Positions 47,331 to 54,039 of a stretch of 64,000 nt of DNA are shown here, in pieces (the first letter of the stretch is position 1; each line of letters opens with the position of its first letter). Below the pieces are notes generated by a model. It worked only from the letters and a program-made list of their open reading frames with translations. It was not told where the DNA came from and made no database searches. This DNA is from an uncultured Gammaproteobacteria bacterium (GTDB taxonomy: Bacteria; Pseudomonadota; Gammaproteobacteria; UBA6429; Thiohalophilaceae): the NCBI GenBank assembly GCA_913064945.1, contig CAJYAN010000001.1, positions 1 to 64,000 of the forward strand, written 5' to 3'. The position numbers were made by a program, and so were the translations under genes.

Positions 47331-48632
47331 ATGTCCATCAGTGCATTGCGAGTTCAGAAGCGATCGATTTCTGCGGTGTCCCGCCAGATCAGGCCAGGCG
47401 GGGTGTTGTTATTGTGTGCAGTTTTATTCGTACTGACTGCCTGTCATAGCGAAGTAAATTCCGCCAAAAGTGCTACGAAATTAACATCGACGTCGATACA
47501 GACCCACAAACATCTGGCCAGTCGTTATGTCTGCCCGATGCATCCGAATATAATTAAGGAAGTGCCGGGGACCTGCCCAATATGCGGTATGACACTGGTG
47601 AAAAAAAAGATTGATCTTGATGCGGGAGCCTATCCAAAAGTTACACTCAATCCGGCGGTAGTGCAGAATATGGGGATTCGTACGGCCAAAGTTACGCGTG
47701 GTGGCCTGTGGCGATTCATCAAAACTGTTGGTTATGTCTCTTATGACCAGGATCGTCTGAGCGTCGTTGATATGCGGACCGAGGGCTGGGTTGAGAATAT
47801 GGCCGTACGGGTAGTGGGGCTGCACGTGAAAAAGGGCCAGCTGCTATTCGAATTATATTCGCCTGAATTCTTGAAGACACAGAAAGCGTTTATTGCCGCC
47901 CAAAAAAAAGACGAGTCAGGTATTAATAAACAGTACTCCCGTCGCCAGGAAAGTGTGGACGCCCGAGATCATTTGCGTTATTTGCAGATCACAGAGAGTA
48001 TGATCAATGAAATTGCGCGTACTGGACGCCCACAATTTCGTATACCAATTTATGCCCCCCAGCAGGGTACGATCATCAAGTTCGATATCTATAAACATAA
48101 ATATATTTACCCTTATGAAGAGTTATTGACAATCGCAGATACCTCCACGGTCTGGGTAGAAGCAAGGGTCTATGAACATCAACTGGCATGGATACATCTG
48201 GGTTTGAAAGCGGATGTAATTGTTAAGGCTGTACCAGGACAGGTTTACCATGGAGAAGTTAATTATATTTATCCTGAGTTGGATTCCAAAACCCGCTCTT
48301 TGCGCGTGAGGTTACGTGTTCCCAACACGGACGGCAGGCTCAAACCAAATATGTTTGCTTATGTGCATATTTATGGCGGCCTTAAAAAAGATATCTTGAA
48401 AATACCCCGAGAGGCATTGATCGAGACAGGTGAGCGAGAAAGTGTGATTCTTAATCGAGGCAAGGGAAAGTTTCAACCCGTCGATGTTGTGACTGGCATG
48501 CGTAGCGACAAAGAAATAGAGATTCTATCCGGTCTAAAACAAGGTGACAGCGTCGTTTCCTCCGGCCAATTTTTAATTGATTCTGAGGCCAATATACAGG
48601 CCAGTTTCAAACGTTTGCAACATCACGAGTAA
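47331..48632 (+). CDS. cusB: Heavy-metal efflux adaptor CusB
   Basis: 433 aa periplasmic adaptor of a CusCBA-type RND efflux pump. A lipobox (LFVLTACHS) suggests a lipid anchor after cleavage. Residues about 66-90 hold a heavy-metal-binding YHS-like domain YVCPMHPNIIKEVPGTCPIC with GM next. The hairpin, lipoyl and beta-barrel parts follow (LYSPEFLKTQKAFIAAQKK; PIYAPQQGTIIK; VRLRVPNTDGRLKPNMFAYV). Six bases separate it from cusA. No outer-membrane cusC is nearby. Confidence 0.94.
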   Translation: MSISALRVQKRSISAVSRQIRPGGVLLLCAVLFVLTACHSEVNSAKSATKLTSTSIQTHKHLASRYVCPMHPNIIKEVPGTCPICGMTLVKKKIDLDAGAYPKVTLNPAVVQNMGIRTAKVTRGGLWRFIKTVGYVSYDQDRLSVVDMRTEGWVENMAVRVVGLHVKKGQLLFELYSPEFLKTQKAFIAAQKKDESGINKQYSRRQESVDARDHLRYLQITESMINEIARTGRPQFRIPIYAPQQGTIIKFDIYKHKYIYPYEELLTIADTSTVWVEARVYEHQLAWIHLGLKADVIVKAVPGQVYHGEVNYIYPELDSKTRSLRVRLRVPNTDGRLKPNMFAYVHIYGGLKKDILKIPREALIETGERESVILNRGKGKFQPVDVVTGMRSDKEIEILSGLKQGDSVVSSGQFLIDSEANIQASFKRLQHHE

Positions 48633-48637
48633 CGATT

Positions 48638-51600
48638 ATGCTTGCCAGATTAATTCGCTGGTCTATCGATAATCGTGTCTTTATTTTGGTGGCCAGCATC
48701 ATGCTCAGTAGTTGGGGCTGGTTTTCACTAAAACACACCTCGCTGGATGCACTTCCGGATCTCTCAGATGTGCAGGTGATTGTGCGGACGAGTTTTGCGG
48801 GACAGTCACCACAGGTGGTTGAAGACCAGATTACGTACCCACTTACTTCGACGCTGATGTCAGTACCGGGTGCGCAGGCCGTACGAGGTTTTTCATTCTT
48901 TGGTGATTCCTATGTGTACGTTGTTTTTAAAGACGGTACCGACCTGTACTGGGCGCGCAGTCGGGTACTGGAGTACCTTAACCAGGCGGTGGGTAGTCTT
49001 CCTGTTGGTGTTAAACCGCATATTGGGCCTGATGCGACCGGTGTGGGCTGGATTTATTCCTATGCACTAGTTGATAAAACCAGACAGCACGACCTGTCAC
49101 AACTCCGTAGCTTGCAGGATTGGTTTTTAAAGTTTGAATTACAAACAATCCCGGGTGTGGCCGAGGTCGCCACCGTCGGTGGTATGGTAAGACAATACCA
49201 AATTGTAGCTAACCCTGATCAACTTCGTGCCTATGGTATTTCACTTTCGACCTTAGCCAGCGCCCTACGTAAATCGAATCAGGAGGTCGGTGGATCGGTA
49301 ATAGAGATGGCCGAAGCTGAGTACATGGTCTATACCCGCGGTTATCTAAAATCATTGCATGATATTGAAATGATACCGGTGGCAGTGACGAAAAAAAATA
49401 TTCCGGTTCTGGTGAGAGATCTGGCGACTGTTCAAATCGGCCCGGAAATGCGTCGCGCGGTTTCGGACCTGGATGGTGAGGGCGAAGTAACCGGTGGCAT
49501 TATTGTTATGCGCTATGGTGAGAATGCTTTAAAAACAATTACAGCGGTCAAATCGAAGCTTGCTGCGCTAAAGAAAAGTTTGCCAGCAGGTGTCAAGATT
49601 GTTGAAACCTATGATCGCTCAGGTTTAATTCTGCGTGCTGTCGATAATCTGTATTCAAAATTAGTTGAAGAATTTTTAATCGTTGCATTGGTTTGTTTTC
49701 TATTTTTATTTCATTTGCGTTCTGCCTTCGTAGCGATTGTTACGCTGCCCTTAGGTATTTTGACGGCGTTTACCATCATGCACTGGCAGGGCATTAACGC
49801 CAATATCATGTCATTGGGTGGTATTGCGATTGCGATTGGCGCCATGGTTGATGCTGCGATTGTAATGATTGAAAATGCACATAAACACCTGGAACGATGG
49901 TATCGTGATCATTCAGGCTCGGTATTGTCAAGTACGGACCGATGGCAATTGATTTCACAAGCCGCCTGTGAAGTCGGGCCAGCATTATTCTTCTCCTTAT
50001 TAATTATTACATTGAGTTTTTTGCCAATTTTTACTCTGGAAGCGCAGGAAGGTCGGTTGTTTACGCCACTTGCATATACCAAGACGTATACTATGGCAGC
50101 GGCAGCGGGTATGGCCGTCACACTGGTGCCGGTATTAATGGGATATTTTATTCGCGGAAATATACCAAATGAAAGCAGAAACCCGATAAGTCGTTGGTTA
50201 ATTCGGAGTTATCAAAAATGGCTTGCCATTGTGCTGGCAAGACCACGGCGTAGCCTGATGATAAGTAGTATTTTGTTATTAACAATGTTTATTCCAATTG
50301 GTGGTGTTAGTGGCTTGTTGTCACCATTGAAGTGGCCAGTCACAAGCCTCGGTTGGTTACTTGGACCTGAGCTTGATAATAGTAATCGTGCTCATTATCT
50401 GGATACGATTAATGACTGGCAATACACCATTGCCAGTCATTGGCAGCAGTGGTTTTCCGGTACACCATGGTTATCACGGTTTGCCTCGGGAATGGGTACC
50501 GAATTTATGCCCGAATTATTTGAAGGCGATCTGATGTATATGCCGACGACCTTACCCGGTATTTCTATCGGTAAAGCTCGGGAATTATTACAGCAAACAG
50601 ATAGGCTTATACATAGCGTACCAGAAGTTAAAAGTGTCTTTGGCAAGGTAGGCCGAGCGGAGACCGCAACGGATCCTGCTCCACTGAATATGTTTGAAAC
50701 CATTATTCAGTTAAAACCTAGAAATCAATGGCGTGTCGGTATGACGCCAGCAAAACTAATTGAAGAACTCGATAGAACGGTTCACTTTCCTGGCCTGACG
50801 AATGCCTGGTTGATGCCGATTAAAACACGGATTGATATGCTATCAACCGGTATCAAGACGCCGGTGGGTATTAAAATTGCTGGACCAGATCTGCATGTCA
50901 TTGAGCATATTGGGCGTGATATTGAAAAAATTCTAGCACATGTGCGGGGAACAAGATCGGTTTATTCAGAACGTGTAGCCGGTGGACGCTATATCCAGGT
51001 CACTCCTGATCGGGAAAAAATGGCTTACATGGGGCTGAACATATCAAAGGTTAACAATGTGATCAGTGCAGCGGTCGGTGGTATTAACGTAACCAGCATG
51101 GTCGAAGGGTCTGAACGTTACCCAGTTAATCTTCGATTTGCGCGCGAGGTTAGGGACAATCTGGAAAAATTACGAGAATTACCGATAGCCTCATCGACCG
51201 GGCAGGAAGTGGCGCTGGGAGAAATCGCCGAGGTGAAAATCGTCGATGGCCCACCAATGATAAAAAGTGAAAATGCACGTTTAAGTGGCTGGACCTTTGT
51301 CGATATTCAGGGTGTTGATCTTGGGAGCTATGTACAGAATGCACAACACATTCTCGCACGCAAACTTGTTCTGCCCACGGGATATTCGATTAGCTGGGCG
51401 GGGCAATATGAATATTTACAGCGTGCCAAGTCGAAGTTGATAGAAGTGATACCCTTGACATTGATGATTATCTTTATACTACTTTATTTCACCTTCCGTC
51501 GTATTACAGAAGCCATTCTGGTCATGGCAACACTACCATTTGCATTGATTGGTGGTTTTTGGCTTTGTTTTTTACTGGGTTACTCTATGTCTGTGGCAAC

Positions 51601-51961
51601 AGCAACAGGTTTTATTGCGCTGGCAGGTGTGGCAGCTGAATTTGGTGTGATTATGCTGGTGTATTTGGATAACGCCGTTGAAGAGCGTCGACAGCAGAAT
51701 AATCTAAATAGTCGTGCCGAGTTACTGGCGGCGGTTATGGAGGGGGCCGTTATGCGGGTGAGGCCCAAGGTGATGACTGTTGCGGTGATCGTCGGGGGGT
51801 TACTTCCCATTATGCTGGGTAGTGGTACAGGCTCGGAGGTGATGCAGCGTATTGCGGCACCGATGGTGGGCGGTATGTTGACGGCACCACTATTATCTCT
51901 GTTTGTGATCCCGACGATTTACGTTACGTGGCGGACAAGAGAACTAAAGTTGCCGAAATAA
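48638..51961 (+). CDS. cusA: Heavy-metal RND efflux transporter CusA
   Basis: 1107 aa, twelve membrane helices and two large periplasmic loops, CzcA/CusA family. MLARLIRWSIDNRVFILVAS starts the first helix. The proton-relay helix is GAIGAMVDAAIVMIENAHKH-like (AIAIGAMVDAAIVMIENA), with GVAAEFGVIMLVYLDNAVEE in the second half. Metal-site methionines (for example GSEVMQRIAAPMVGGML) fit a Cu/Ag pump, but the exact metal cannot be fixed from sequence. Codon bias shifts to more AT in the middle of the gene. A terminator follows. Confidence 0.95.
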   Translation: MLARLIRWSIDNRVFILVASIMLSSWGWFSLKHTSLDALPDLSDVQVIVRTSFAGQSPQVVEDQITYPLTSTLMSVPGAQAVRGFSFFGDSYVYVVFKDGTDLYWARSRVLEYLNQAVGSLPVGVKPHIGPDATGVGWIYSYALVDKTRQHDLSQLRSLQDWFLKFELQTIPGVAEVATVGGMVRQYQIVANPDQLRAYGISLSTLASALRKSNQEVGGSVIEMAEAEYMVYTRGYLKSLHDIEMIPVAVTKKNIPVLVRDLATVQIGPEMRRAVSDLDGEGEVTGGIIVMRYGENALKTITAVKSKLAALKKSLPAGVKIVETYDRSGLILRAVDNLYSKLVEEFLIVALVCFLFLFHLRSAFVAIVTLPLGILTAFTIMHWQGINANIMSLGGIAIAIGAMVDAAIVMIENAHKHLERWYRDHSGSVLSSTDRWQLISQAACEVGPALFFSLLIITLSFLPIFTLEAQEGRLFTPLAYTKTYTMAAAAGMAVTLVPVLMGYFIRGNIPNESRNPISRWLIRSYQKWLAIVLARPRRSLMISSILLLTMFIPIGGVSGLLSPLKWPVTSLGWLLGPELDNSNRAHYLDTINDWQYTIASHWQQWFSGTPWLSRFASGMGTEFMPELFEGDLMYMPTTLPGISIGKARELLQQTDRLIHSVPEVKSVFGKVGRAETATDPAPLNMFETIIQLKPRNQWRVGMTPAKLIEELDRTVHFPGLTNAWLMPIKTRIDMLSTGIKTPVGIKIAGPDLHVIEHIGRDIEKILAHVRGTRSVYSERVAGGRYIQVTPDREKMAYMGLNISKVNNVISAAVGGINVTSMVEGSERYPVNLRFAREVRDNLEKLRELPIASSTGQEVALGEIAEVKIVDGPPMIKSENARLSGWTFVDIQGVDLGSYVQNAQHILARKLVLPTGYSISWAGQYEYLQRAKSKLIEVIPLTLMIIFILLYFTFRRITEAILVMATLPFALIGGFWLCFLLGYSMSVATATGFIALAGVAAEFGVIMLVYLDNAVEERRQQNNLNSRAELLAAVMEGAVMRVRPKVMTVAVIVGGLLPIMLGSGTGSEVMQRIAAPMVGGMLTAPLLSLFVIPTIYVTWRTRELKLPK

Positions 51962-51986
51962 AAAAAGGAGGCATAGCCTCCTTTAA
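51962..51986 (+). terminator. Rho-independent terminator after cusA
   Basis: AAAAAAGGAGGC-ATA-GCCTCCTTT forms a perfect 9-bp stem (AAAGGAGGC/GCCTCCTTT) immediately after the cusA stop, A-rich before and T-rich after, so it can act in both directions. It separates cusBA from the convergent cupredoxin genes. Confidence 0.85.
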
Positions 51987-52029: not shown

Positions 52030-53022
52030 TTATACGACCGTAATACTGGTACGTGTTGTTCCCAGCACGGCACCTGTGATCCAATCCAGAATATCAGTCT
52101 CAATTAGGTAAGTACCCGTTTGAGTTGGTTGGAAAATGATGTCGTATCTTTCTGCCGCGCTAGCACGTATCTGTGAGACGGTGACGGGGTTTGGTAACGG
52201 GCGACCATCAGACTGGTAAATCGTCCCAGTTAAGCCGCCCCCGAAACGCAGAAGCTGCGGATAGTAGCCAGCACAGATATAGCGAGCGAGTAATTTCTGT
52301 CCGAGCTGAATTGTGGCCGCGATGTTAGGTGCGCTCATGGCGCTGTTACCACTGCCATCGATACCGGAAATGACGAAATAGTCTGGATTGAGGTCGTTCA
52401 GACCGACATCTCCTCCACAAGTACCGGCATTCCATGCCAGGGTATGCCAGGACGAATCAATTTCGTCCACAACCCAGAAGACCTCGGCATTATATGTTGG
52501 ACCACCTGAAAATAAGGTGCCGGGACCTTCCGGCGGATCAACAATGATGGCGCCATACATACCCATTTCAGCGTGTAATACGGTATTTGTATGACAGTGA
52601 TAGAAAAATGTACCGGCGTGTGAAGGTTTCCACTGGTAGGTATAGGTGCCATTGTAAACATCCCAGGTAATATGGCCGACACCATCGGAGGTATGAGCCG
52701 GTTCAATACCGTGATGATGTACGGTATGCATCCACATCATGCCAACATCCAGTGTTGTGTGAGCAATCTGGCCCTGGGTCAGGCGCATGGGGGCAGACGG
52801 ATAGGTAGCGCCTCCACCCATGCCGCCACCGCCATCAGCAAAGCCCCACATGTTGACGACGGTGCCGTTATCCATGGTCAGCGGGATGTTCATGTCAATG
52901 GTGCGACTAAATGTAATATCAGCAGTGACCAGACCTGGTGTTGCGGGGGCGTCAGGGTAAACATAACAGGTACCACCACCATTCGTTGACATCAGTTTGT
53001 GTTTTTTCAACAGGTTAAACAT
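52030..53022 (-). CDS. Two-domain cupredoxin with type 1 copper site (subunit B)
   Basis: 330 aa in two cupredoxin domains. Domain 1 has H99, H102 and H104 (HTVHHHG, an HxxHxH motif) and HCHTNTVLHAEMGM, giving H142, C143, H144, H150 and M155. These are the ligands of a type 1 copper and half of a trinuclear cluster, in the style of domain 3 of large multicopper oxidases. Domain 2 (about 215-330) has no copper ligands. There is no signal peptide. The ATG follows GGGGAG (SD) 12 bases after the stop of the next-upstream gene. Together with that gene it seems to make one oxidase. Substrate unknown; copper context from cusBA. Confidence 0.88.
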   Translation of the reverse strand: MFNLLKKHKLMSTNGGGTCYVYPDAPATPGLVTADITFSRTIDMNIPLTMDNGTVVNMWGFADGGGGMGGGATYPSAPMRLTQGQIAHTTLDVGMMWMHTVHHHGIEPAHTSDGVGHITWDVYNGTYTYQWKPSHAGTFFYHCHTNTVLHAEMGMYGAIIVDPPEGPGTLFSGGPTYNAEVFWVVDEIDSSWHTLAWNAGTCGGDVGLNDLNPDYFVISGIDGSGNSAMSAPNIAATIQLGQKLLARYICAGYYPQLLRFGGGLTGTIYQSDGRPLPNPVTVSQIRASAAERYDIIFQPTQTGTYLIETDILDWITGAVLGTTRTSITVV

Positions 53023-53034
53023 TTTCGACTCCCC

Positions 53035-54039
53035 TTATTCAAAATAAATGTCGGTTAGTGAGCCAAACATATAGAGTCCACCGCCCGCTGTTTGCGTCAT
53101 TTCATTATGCAGGTGCATCGGATAGACCCCTGTCTGAACTGCTGGCCAGGCGTCCGGTGGTGGCTCAAAAGGATAAATGGCATCAAATTTCCCCATATTC
53201 CCATCCAGGTTAATACAGTCTTTCAACCAGACATCGCTGCGTATCTGGCCATTTTCAGTCAACCATTCCATGTGGTTGGCATGGACATGGACGGAGTTTT
53301 GGCATTTGCCAGCATTCAGGACGCGTATTAGTGTGCGGTCTCCAATATGACCGTGTAGAGAGGAGCGTGGATCGACCATGGCATCAATATTGGGATCTCC
53401 GGCACCAGGTGCGCCGGGTGGACGAGCACTCAGACCATTGAGAGTAAAATAACGCGGCTTGTATGTTGTGGTCGGTGTGCTGCCGTTGCTAATCGCAGTA
53501 TGCCATGCGGGATCGATATCGTGGAATAGCCAGAAATACTGCTGCACAAAAGTGGGGCTGCCAGAATAGAGCGTGTTACTACTTCCGCTCGGCATGATGG
53601 CAAAACCACCGTGTAAGCCGACAAGGCGATTGTATGGCGCATTGGAGGGGTCAAGATAAAAGTAGGAACCTGGCGCACCCGCAGTAAAGCTTAGGGTCTT
53701 TGATGCCCCGGCATTGATGGTAATGGTAGATAAGCCAAGACCATCAATTGTAAAAGCATGCTGGTGCCCCAGAGTGTTGATGATAGTAATGTTTACCGTA
53801 TCACCTTGCTGGACAATCATTTGTTCGCCAGGAACATTCAGCACGCTTTGACTGCTGCTAAAACCACGGAAGTAGACATCGACACCGTCCGGCTGAGTGA
53901 TTAAACCATCGGTGATGTAGAAGGTTTTATTAATGGTGCTGGCATAGGCTCGGGGGGTCCAGGCGATTAGTCCCGTCGAGGCCAGGGCAGCGGTCGCCAT
54001 ACCTGCGCTGCTCAGCTTTAAAAAGTTTCTCCGCTTCAT
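53035..54039 (-). CDS. Tat-exported cupredoxin with half a trinuclear site (subunit A)
   Basis: 334 aa. A clear Tat signal: RRNFLK at residues 3-8, hydrophobic stretch, cleavage near AYAST. Domain 1 (about 40-150) has a cupredoxin fold (SYFYLDPSN in place of a copper loop) but its copper ligands are missing. Domain 2 has HVHANH (H251, H253) and YPMHLHNEMTQTAGGGLYMF (H309, H311), like domain 1 of multicopper oxidases (HWHG and HSH types). It has no type 1 Cys. So it would supply four trinuclear-site histidines, and the downstream protein the other four plus type 1. RBS AAGAGGTAGC before the ATG. First gene of the pair. Confidence 0.88.
   Translation of the reverse strand: MKRRNFLKLSSAGMATAALASTGLIAWTPRAYASTINKTFYITDGLITQPDGVDVYFRGFSSSQSVLNVPGEQMIVQQGDTVNITIINTLGHQHAFTIDGLGLSTITINAGASKTLSFTAGAPGSYFYLDPSNAPYNRLVGLHGGFAIMPSGSSNTLYSGSPTFVQQYFWLFHDIDPAWHTAISNGSTPTTTYKPRYFTLNGLSARPPGAPGAGDPNIDAMVDPRSSLHGHIGDRTLIRVLNAGKCQNSVHVHANHMEWLTENGQIRSDVWLKDCINLDGNMGKFDAIYPFEPPPDAWPAVQTGVYPMHLHNEMTQTAGGGLYMFGSLTDIYFE

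Follow-up and report, generated by a model that had tools for sequence, protein, structure and literature searches.

A probable two-gene split multicopper oxidase, with one subunit probably exported on the other

Two adjacent genes on the reverse strand of the window (the whole 64,000-nucleotide stretch of DNA from an uncultured gammaproteobacterium analysed here) very probably encode two subunits that complement each other in a single heteromeric multicopper oxidase of type C two-domain ancestry, with subunit B exported on subunit A. There are no copper, activity or interaction data for the pair, and its assembly into a complex is an inference. A heteromeric oxidase with the trinuclear cluster at the interface had been suggested in the initial annotation; support for it comes from the pairing of the genes, the complementary loss of ligands, the co-variation of the A and B trees, AlphaFold2 models of two pairs and a sister family with three genes.

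Gene A (53035..54039, reverse strand) encodes a two-domain cupredoxin subunit of 334 aa, beginning MKRRNFLKLSSAGMATAALASTGLIAWTPRAYA, in which domain 2 alone carries half of a trinuclear site. Gene B (52030..53022, same strand) encodes another two-domain cupredoxin subunit, of 330 aa, beginning MFNLLKKHKLMSTNGGG and without a signal peptide. Both were defined from open reading frames and alignment. The stop of A and the start of B are separated by a spacer of 12 bases (53023..53034, reverse strand; GGG GAG TCG AAA), which is in frame, and the distance given in the initial annotation is exact. Pfam Cu-oxidase_3 is matched by both proteins (27.8 bits for A and 38.2 bits for B; cut-off 21) and, being ~30% identical across part of their length, they are paralogues. 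The closest solved relatives of B are the type C two-domain oxidases 3g5w from Nitrosomonas europaea and 2zwn, a metagenomic laccase; the B half of the predicted structure of the pair matches 2zwn with a Z of 26.2. A single-sequence search of the PDB with A gives only weak matches, the best being to copper nitrite reductases (NirK). These are also two-domain proteins and form trimers, but NirK has no trinuclear cluster, whereas A and B keep eight trinuclear histidines. With a profile of A, the best matches are 2zwn and 3g5w, and nearly the whole length of A is covered.

Two-domain oxidases are described as homotrimers with trinuclear sites between neighbouring identical chains, and those of type C have the type 1 copper in domain 1 (PMC3192119, PMC13151041). 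B has both features of type C, two cupredoxin domains and a type 1 site in domain 1, and A has the two domains without the type 1 site. In 3g5w and 2zwn, as predicted for A and B, each chain has two cupredoxin domains, the type 1 copper is in domain 1 and the trinuclear site lies between domains 1 and 2 of different chains. The homotrimers, however, are described as having three complete sites, whereas A and B divide the halves between two different proteins, one of the two domains being dead in each. A–B would work as the type C two-domain oxidases do, yet it lacks their defining property, both trinuclear halves on a single chain; each chain lacks one half in all members of the family.

Ligands were assigned by reference to complete two-domain oxidases from other genomes (L090-L097). 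In A, H251-V-H253 (53281..53289, reverse strand) and H309-L-H311 (53107..53115, reverse strand) are the first and second HxH of domain 2; they are invariant in a 27-row alignment, fall in the columns of the type C domain-2 HxH and HDH, respectively, and are predicted trinuclear ligands. In B, H99-T-V-H102-H-H104 (52711..52728, reverse strand) and H142-C143-H144...H150...M155 (52558..52599, reverse strand) also occupy invariant columns. The predicted trinuclear eight are H102, H104, H142 and H144 of B together with H251, H253, H309 and H311 of A, and the predicted type 1 site lies entirely in B (H99, C143, H150 and M155). Every ligand residue named in the initial annotation is present at its position, and its claims that each gene supplies half of the trinuclear histidines and that B alone has a type 1 site, with none in A, have held. 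Its HxxHxH motif of B (99, 102 and 104) is also there, but alignment with the complete type C oxidases makes H99 the first type 1 ligand and not a trinuclear one.

Set against the complete oxidases, B retains HTxHxHG and YHCHxxTxxHxEMGM of domain 1, and neither of the domain-2 motifs survives in it; in A the two domain-2 HxH remain and both domain-1 motifs are gone. In alignments of 45 A and 42 B proteins, the kept ligands are found in every intact sequence and stand among the few invariant columns of the two profiles, and the ligands of the opposite half are missing from all 45 and all 42. The eight histidines in four HxH motifs that characterize a multicopper oxidase are provided by A and B jointly and by neither alone; the type 1 His/Cys/His/Met set, linked via HCH to the cluster, is provided by B. 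As judged from the aligned sequences, this complementary pattern is not the product of chance.

Some other features of these alignments may be recorded. A third histidine in the HxHxxH of A domain 2, H256 (53272-53274), is invariant among the A proteins; H92 and H94 in A domain 1 are present in the window and are not conserved among homologues. One A homologue (L047:5007-5972) has a frameshifted C-terminus and has lost the last HxH, which reflects either a sequencing error or a broken gene. The complete type C oxidases of L092-L095 lie near one or two nitrite-reductase-like paralogues without HxH motifs.

The search for the adjacent pair in other genomes, proposed with the initial annotation, drew on relatives and a scan of genomes, which gave 46 non-redundant A homologues. 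In 42 of these 46 loci the next gene downstream, on the same strand, is B; the remaining four A genes run into contig edges, so that B is present wherever there is enough contig (42/42). The distance matrices of A and B are strongly correlated (Mantel r 0.957 for 39 pairs, against a maximum of 0.42 in 2000 shuffles), and A, B and the complete oxidases form three separate clades in the tree. As linked inheritance explains part of r, the correlation demonstrates long co-inheritance rather than contact. A B profile (E<=1e-40) run against 398 genomes sampled evenly across the phylum matched only the source genome; the family is therefore limited to certain lineages. A tandem duplication, A-B-A-B, occurs in one genome (G008, L052:4715-9354).

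It might be supposed that A and B share no trinuclear site and have independent functions, B carrying electrons with its type 1 copper or storing copper and A serving as a scaffold that binds copper; B alone does hold a complete type 1 site, and no A–B complex has been observed. We regard this as very unlikely, because no intact sequence has lost any of its trinuclear histidines, although neither chain could use its four without the other's, the two genes are never apart where contigs allow and the same division is repeated in the three-gene family. The loss of one half of the ligands from each protein could also be taken to mean that one gene is a decaying duplicate and the pair is on its way to becoming a pseudogene. 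Hardly any credence can be given to this, as it is contradicted by conservation: the loss is complementary, old and common to all members, which are 25-80% identical, neither frame is interrupted and the kept ligands do not vary. A pseudogene or frameshift of one longer oxidase was considered too, and was ruled out: every relative conserves the two separate frames, and no single frame fusing A to B was seen among the 46 A loci.

In type C oxidases, three identical chains form a ring in which each trinuclear cluster lies where domain 1 of a chain meets domain 2 of its neighbour. If A and B are two halves of one such oxidase, these roles are divided. Domain 1 of B would hold the type 1 copper, which takes electrons from the substrate, and four of the trinuclear histidines, and domain 2 of A would supply the other four. 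Domain 1 of A and domain 2 of B would be retained as structure only. A single active interface, A domain 2 against B domain 1, would then reduce O2 to water, a reaction that is inferred.

The structure prediction called for in the initial annotation was made with AlphaFold2. As the reading frame of A continues through its stop codon and the 12-base gap into B, the pair can be read as one chain for folding, and the model comprises mature A and B from the window's own DNA, read through the stop and gap, with an alignment of 65 rows of which 16 were paired. The mean pLDDT is 91.1 and the pTM 0.91; the joint between A and B is disordered and of low confidence. The top Foldseek matches are ceruloplasmin, MnxG and the related coagulation factors V and VIII. 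VIA-align superimposes residues 1-636 of the model on residues 1-697 of human ceruloplasmin (4enz) over 508 residues, with an rmsd of 3.9 Å and a Z of 24.3. In this register, which spans ceruloplasmin domains 1-4, domain 2 of A meets domain 1 of B as ceruloplasmin domain 2 meets domain 3. The ceruloplasmin cluster sits at the interface of domains 6 and 1, and the pseudo-symmetry of the ring makes the domain 2/3 interface one of the same type. A second model, built for the divergent pair of L048, a Sec-branch locus (pLDDT 85.7, pTM 0.87), again matches ceruloplasmin. The placing of A domain 2 against B domain 1 at a trinuclear-type interface is supported by these predictions, but the meeting of all eight histidines in one site is not established, as the models contain no metal and distances between the histidines were not measured. 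The flexible read-through linker could also favour the A-then-B order, and ring closure is not covered; no natural in-frame B-then-A example was found for a control fold in the reversed order.

In at least 12 loci (L086, L141-L152), three consecutive genes encode cupredoxin pairs of Sec type. Chain 1 has domain-1 ligands only (HxH, HCH), chain 2 has domain-2 ligands only (HxH, HSH) and chain 3 is a ligand-free cupredoxin pair, usually longer, of up to 1650 aa. On the evidence of these motifs, the arrangement is exactly what would be expected if three two-domain chains formed a ring and only one of its interfaces were live, and the family looks like a heterotrimeric split six-domain oxidase of three chains. 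By extension from such a ring, a second A or B would probably occupy the remaining position in the two-gene form. As two alternating subunits cannot evenly fill a ring of three places, the stoichiometry of A and B is open, and any figure for it is inferred; the gene order A-B-B in one lineage (G075, discussed below) is a hint of an A-B-B ring. No third two-domain paralogue was detected in the source genome with Pfam Cu-oxidase_3 and the B profile, only CopA- and CueO-like proteins.

Ceruloplasmin and MnxG resemble the proposed A–B oxidase in being rings of cupredoxin pairs with one trinuclear site and the other interfaces degenerate. They are, however, single chains with the type 1 copper by the cluster in the last domain, whereas A and B are separate products with the type 1 copper in the domain-1 half; six cupredoxin domains in one chain are not present here, but two chains of two domains. 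The MnxEFG complex of Bacillus sp. PL-12 resembles the proposed A–B oxidase in that several gene products together make up the working multicopper oxidase. The only oxidase among them is MnxG, and MnxE and MnxF are unrelated small accessory proteins that it needs (PMC5622069). No heteromeric, heterodimeric or heterotrimeric multicopper oxidase with a trinuclear site split between gene products was found in the literature, from which subscription papers were not covered.

The first 33 residues of A (MKRRNFLK...AYA; 53941..54039, reverse strand) form a predicted Tat signal, which passes NCBIfam TIGR01409 (19.0 bits, cut-off 16.7) and falls below the Pfam cut-off (18.1 bits, 22.7 required). The RR motif is present in every A homologue of the Tat branch, with an RRxFL-type signal in the branch of the window. 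The initial annotation gave A a Tat signal and B none, and this is upheld by the NCBIfam match and by the absence of a hydrophobic stretch from the leader of B. In the Tat branch generally, B leaders are short or rich in Gly/Thr/Met, again without a hydrophobic stretch, and the 14-residue hydrophobicity mean of these tails is <=0.84 once one spurious ORF extension is removed (the value of 2.16 for the B of L009 stems from such an upstream extension). In nine loci of a Sec/lipoprotein-type branch (L038, L041, L043-L046, L048, L050 and L153; the N-terminus of A in L050 is cut by the contig end), B has its own hydrophobic signal. The Tat pathway carries folded complexes and Sec does not; a B that hitch-hikes on A is thus predicted to lack a signal beside a Tat-type A and to have one beside a Sec-type A, which is the pattern seen. 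The hitch-hiking of B through Tat is supported by this comparison, and the dependence of its export on A is inferred.

The mark of a Tat hetero-oligomer, one subunit with a Tat signal and a partner with none, is found in the loci with a Tat-type A, with one exception. In G075 (L049:5009-6621 and L054:4441-6638, on overlapping contig ends), A is followed by two B genes, each of which encodes a Tat-like lipoprotein signal. The proposal in the initial annotation that B rides through Tat on A accordingly fits the signals across loci, but hitch-hiking is not universal. This lineage, and the many Tat-branch B proteins that begin with short Arg-rich, Gly/Thr/Met-rich tails, leave room for a heteromeric oxidase in which B is exported by an unrecognized route or the pair stays in the cytoplasm. 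That seems unlikely, given B tails without a hydrophobic stretch, a Tat signal on A and, in the nine Sec/lipoprotein-type loci, the B signal expected if unfolded export cannot carry a partner. With B carried by A, and only A bearing an export signal in most Tat-type members, the pair would most likely fold and assemble in the cytoplasm; B would cross the membrane attached to A and receive copper in the periplasm, a loading that is also inferred.

The surroundings make a link of A–B to copper likely. The genes cusB (47331-48632, forward strand) and cusA (48638-51961, forward strand), for copper/silver-type RND efflux, are convergent with A–B, and a terminator-like hairpin (51964..51984, reverse strand) lies 3' of B, between the A–B operon and cusA. 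The hairpin is weak evidence alone (2 terminator-like sites in the region, 2.1 expected in shuffles) but is in the right position. The initial annotation was correct in placing the pair next to cusBA, but with the genes on opposite strands and the hairpin between them they do not form one operon in the window. In L031, L033 (Thiobacillus denitrificans RG) and L035, A-B-cusB-cusA lie on one strand; in L022, cusA is again convergent with A–B. Elsewhere, the pair adjoins Crp-type or MerR-type regulators, or has no recognized copper genes nearby. Oxidation of Cu(I) beside Cus efflux is the likeliest role and the simplest guess, the substrate being inferred. The source genome also encodes a CueO-like oxidase and a CopA, so a role in copper defence may not be A–B's own. 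The CopA-like oxidase (L101, contig C8, ~20.6 kb) is of Tat type and has a long repeated Met/His segment of GMDMSGMQHGKQDMK units.

A and B probably represent an undescribed class in which the trinuclear site comes from two gene products. The class would have two- and three-gene forms, and the three-gene one would amount to a six-domain oxidase divided among separate chains. Export of the Tat-type form would be linked to completion of the active site, because that site can form only once the signal-less subunit has joined the complex in which it is exported. The family would offer a naturally occurring oxidase whose two half-sites can be mutated independently, and a comparative test of Tat co-export in its Sec-type relatives, with a signal on both subunits; Thiobacillus denitrificans RG, with the pair beside cusBA, is an available named strain. 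Six-domain oxidases are single chains thought to have descended from triplicated two-domain ones (PMC3600357). A split-cluster family would be intermediate between the homotrimeric two-domain and the single-chain six-domain oxidases, with most interfaces silenced without fusion of the genes, and through it the two-domain origin of the six-domain enzymes would become directly testable.
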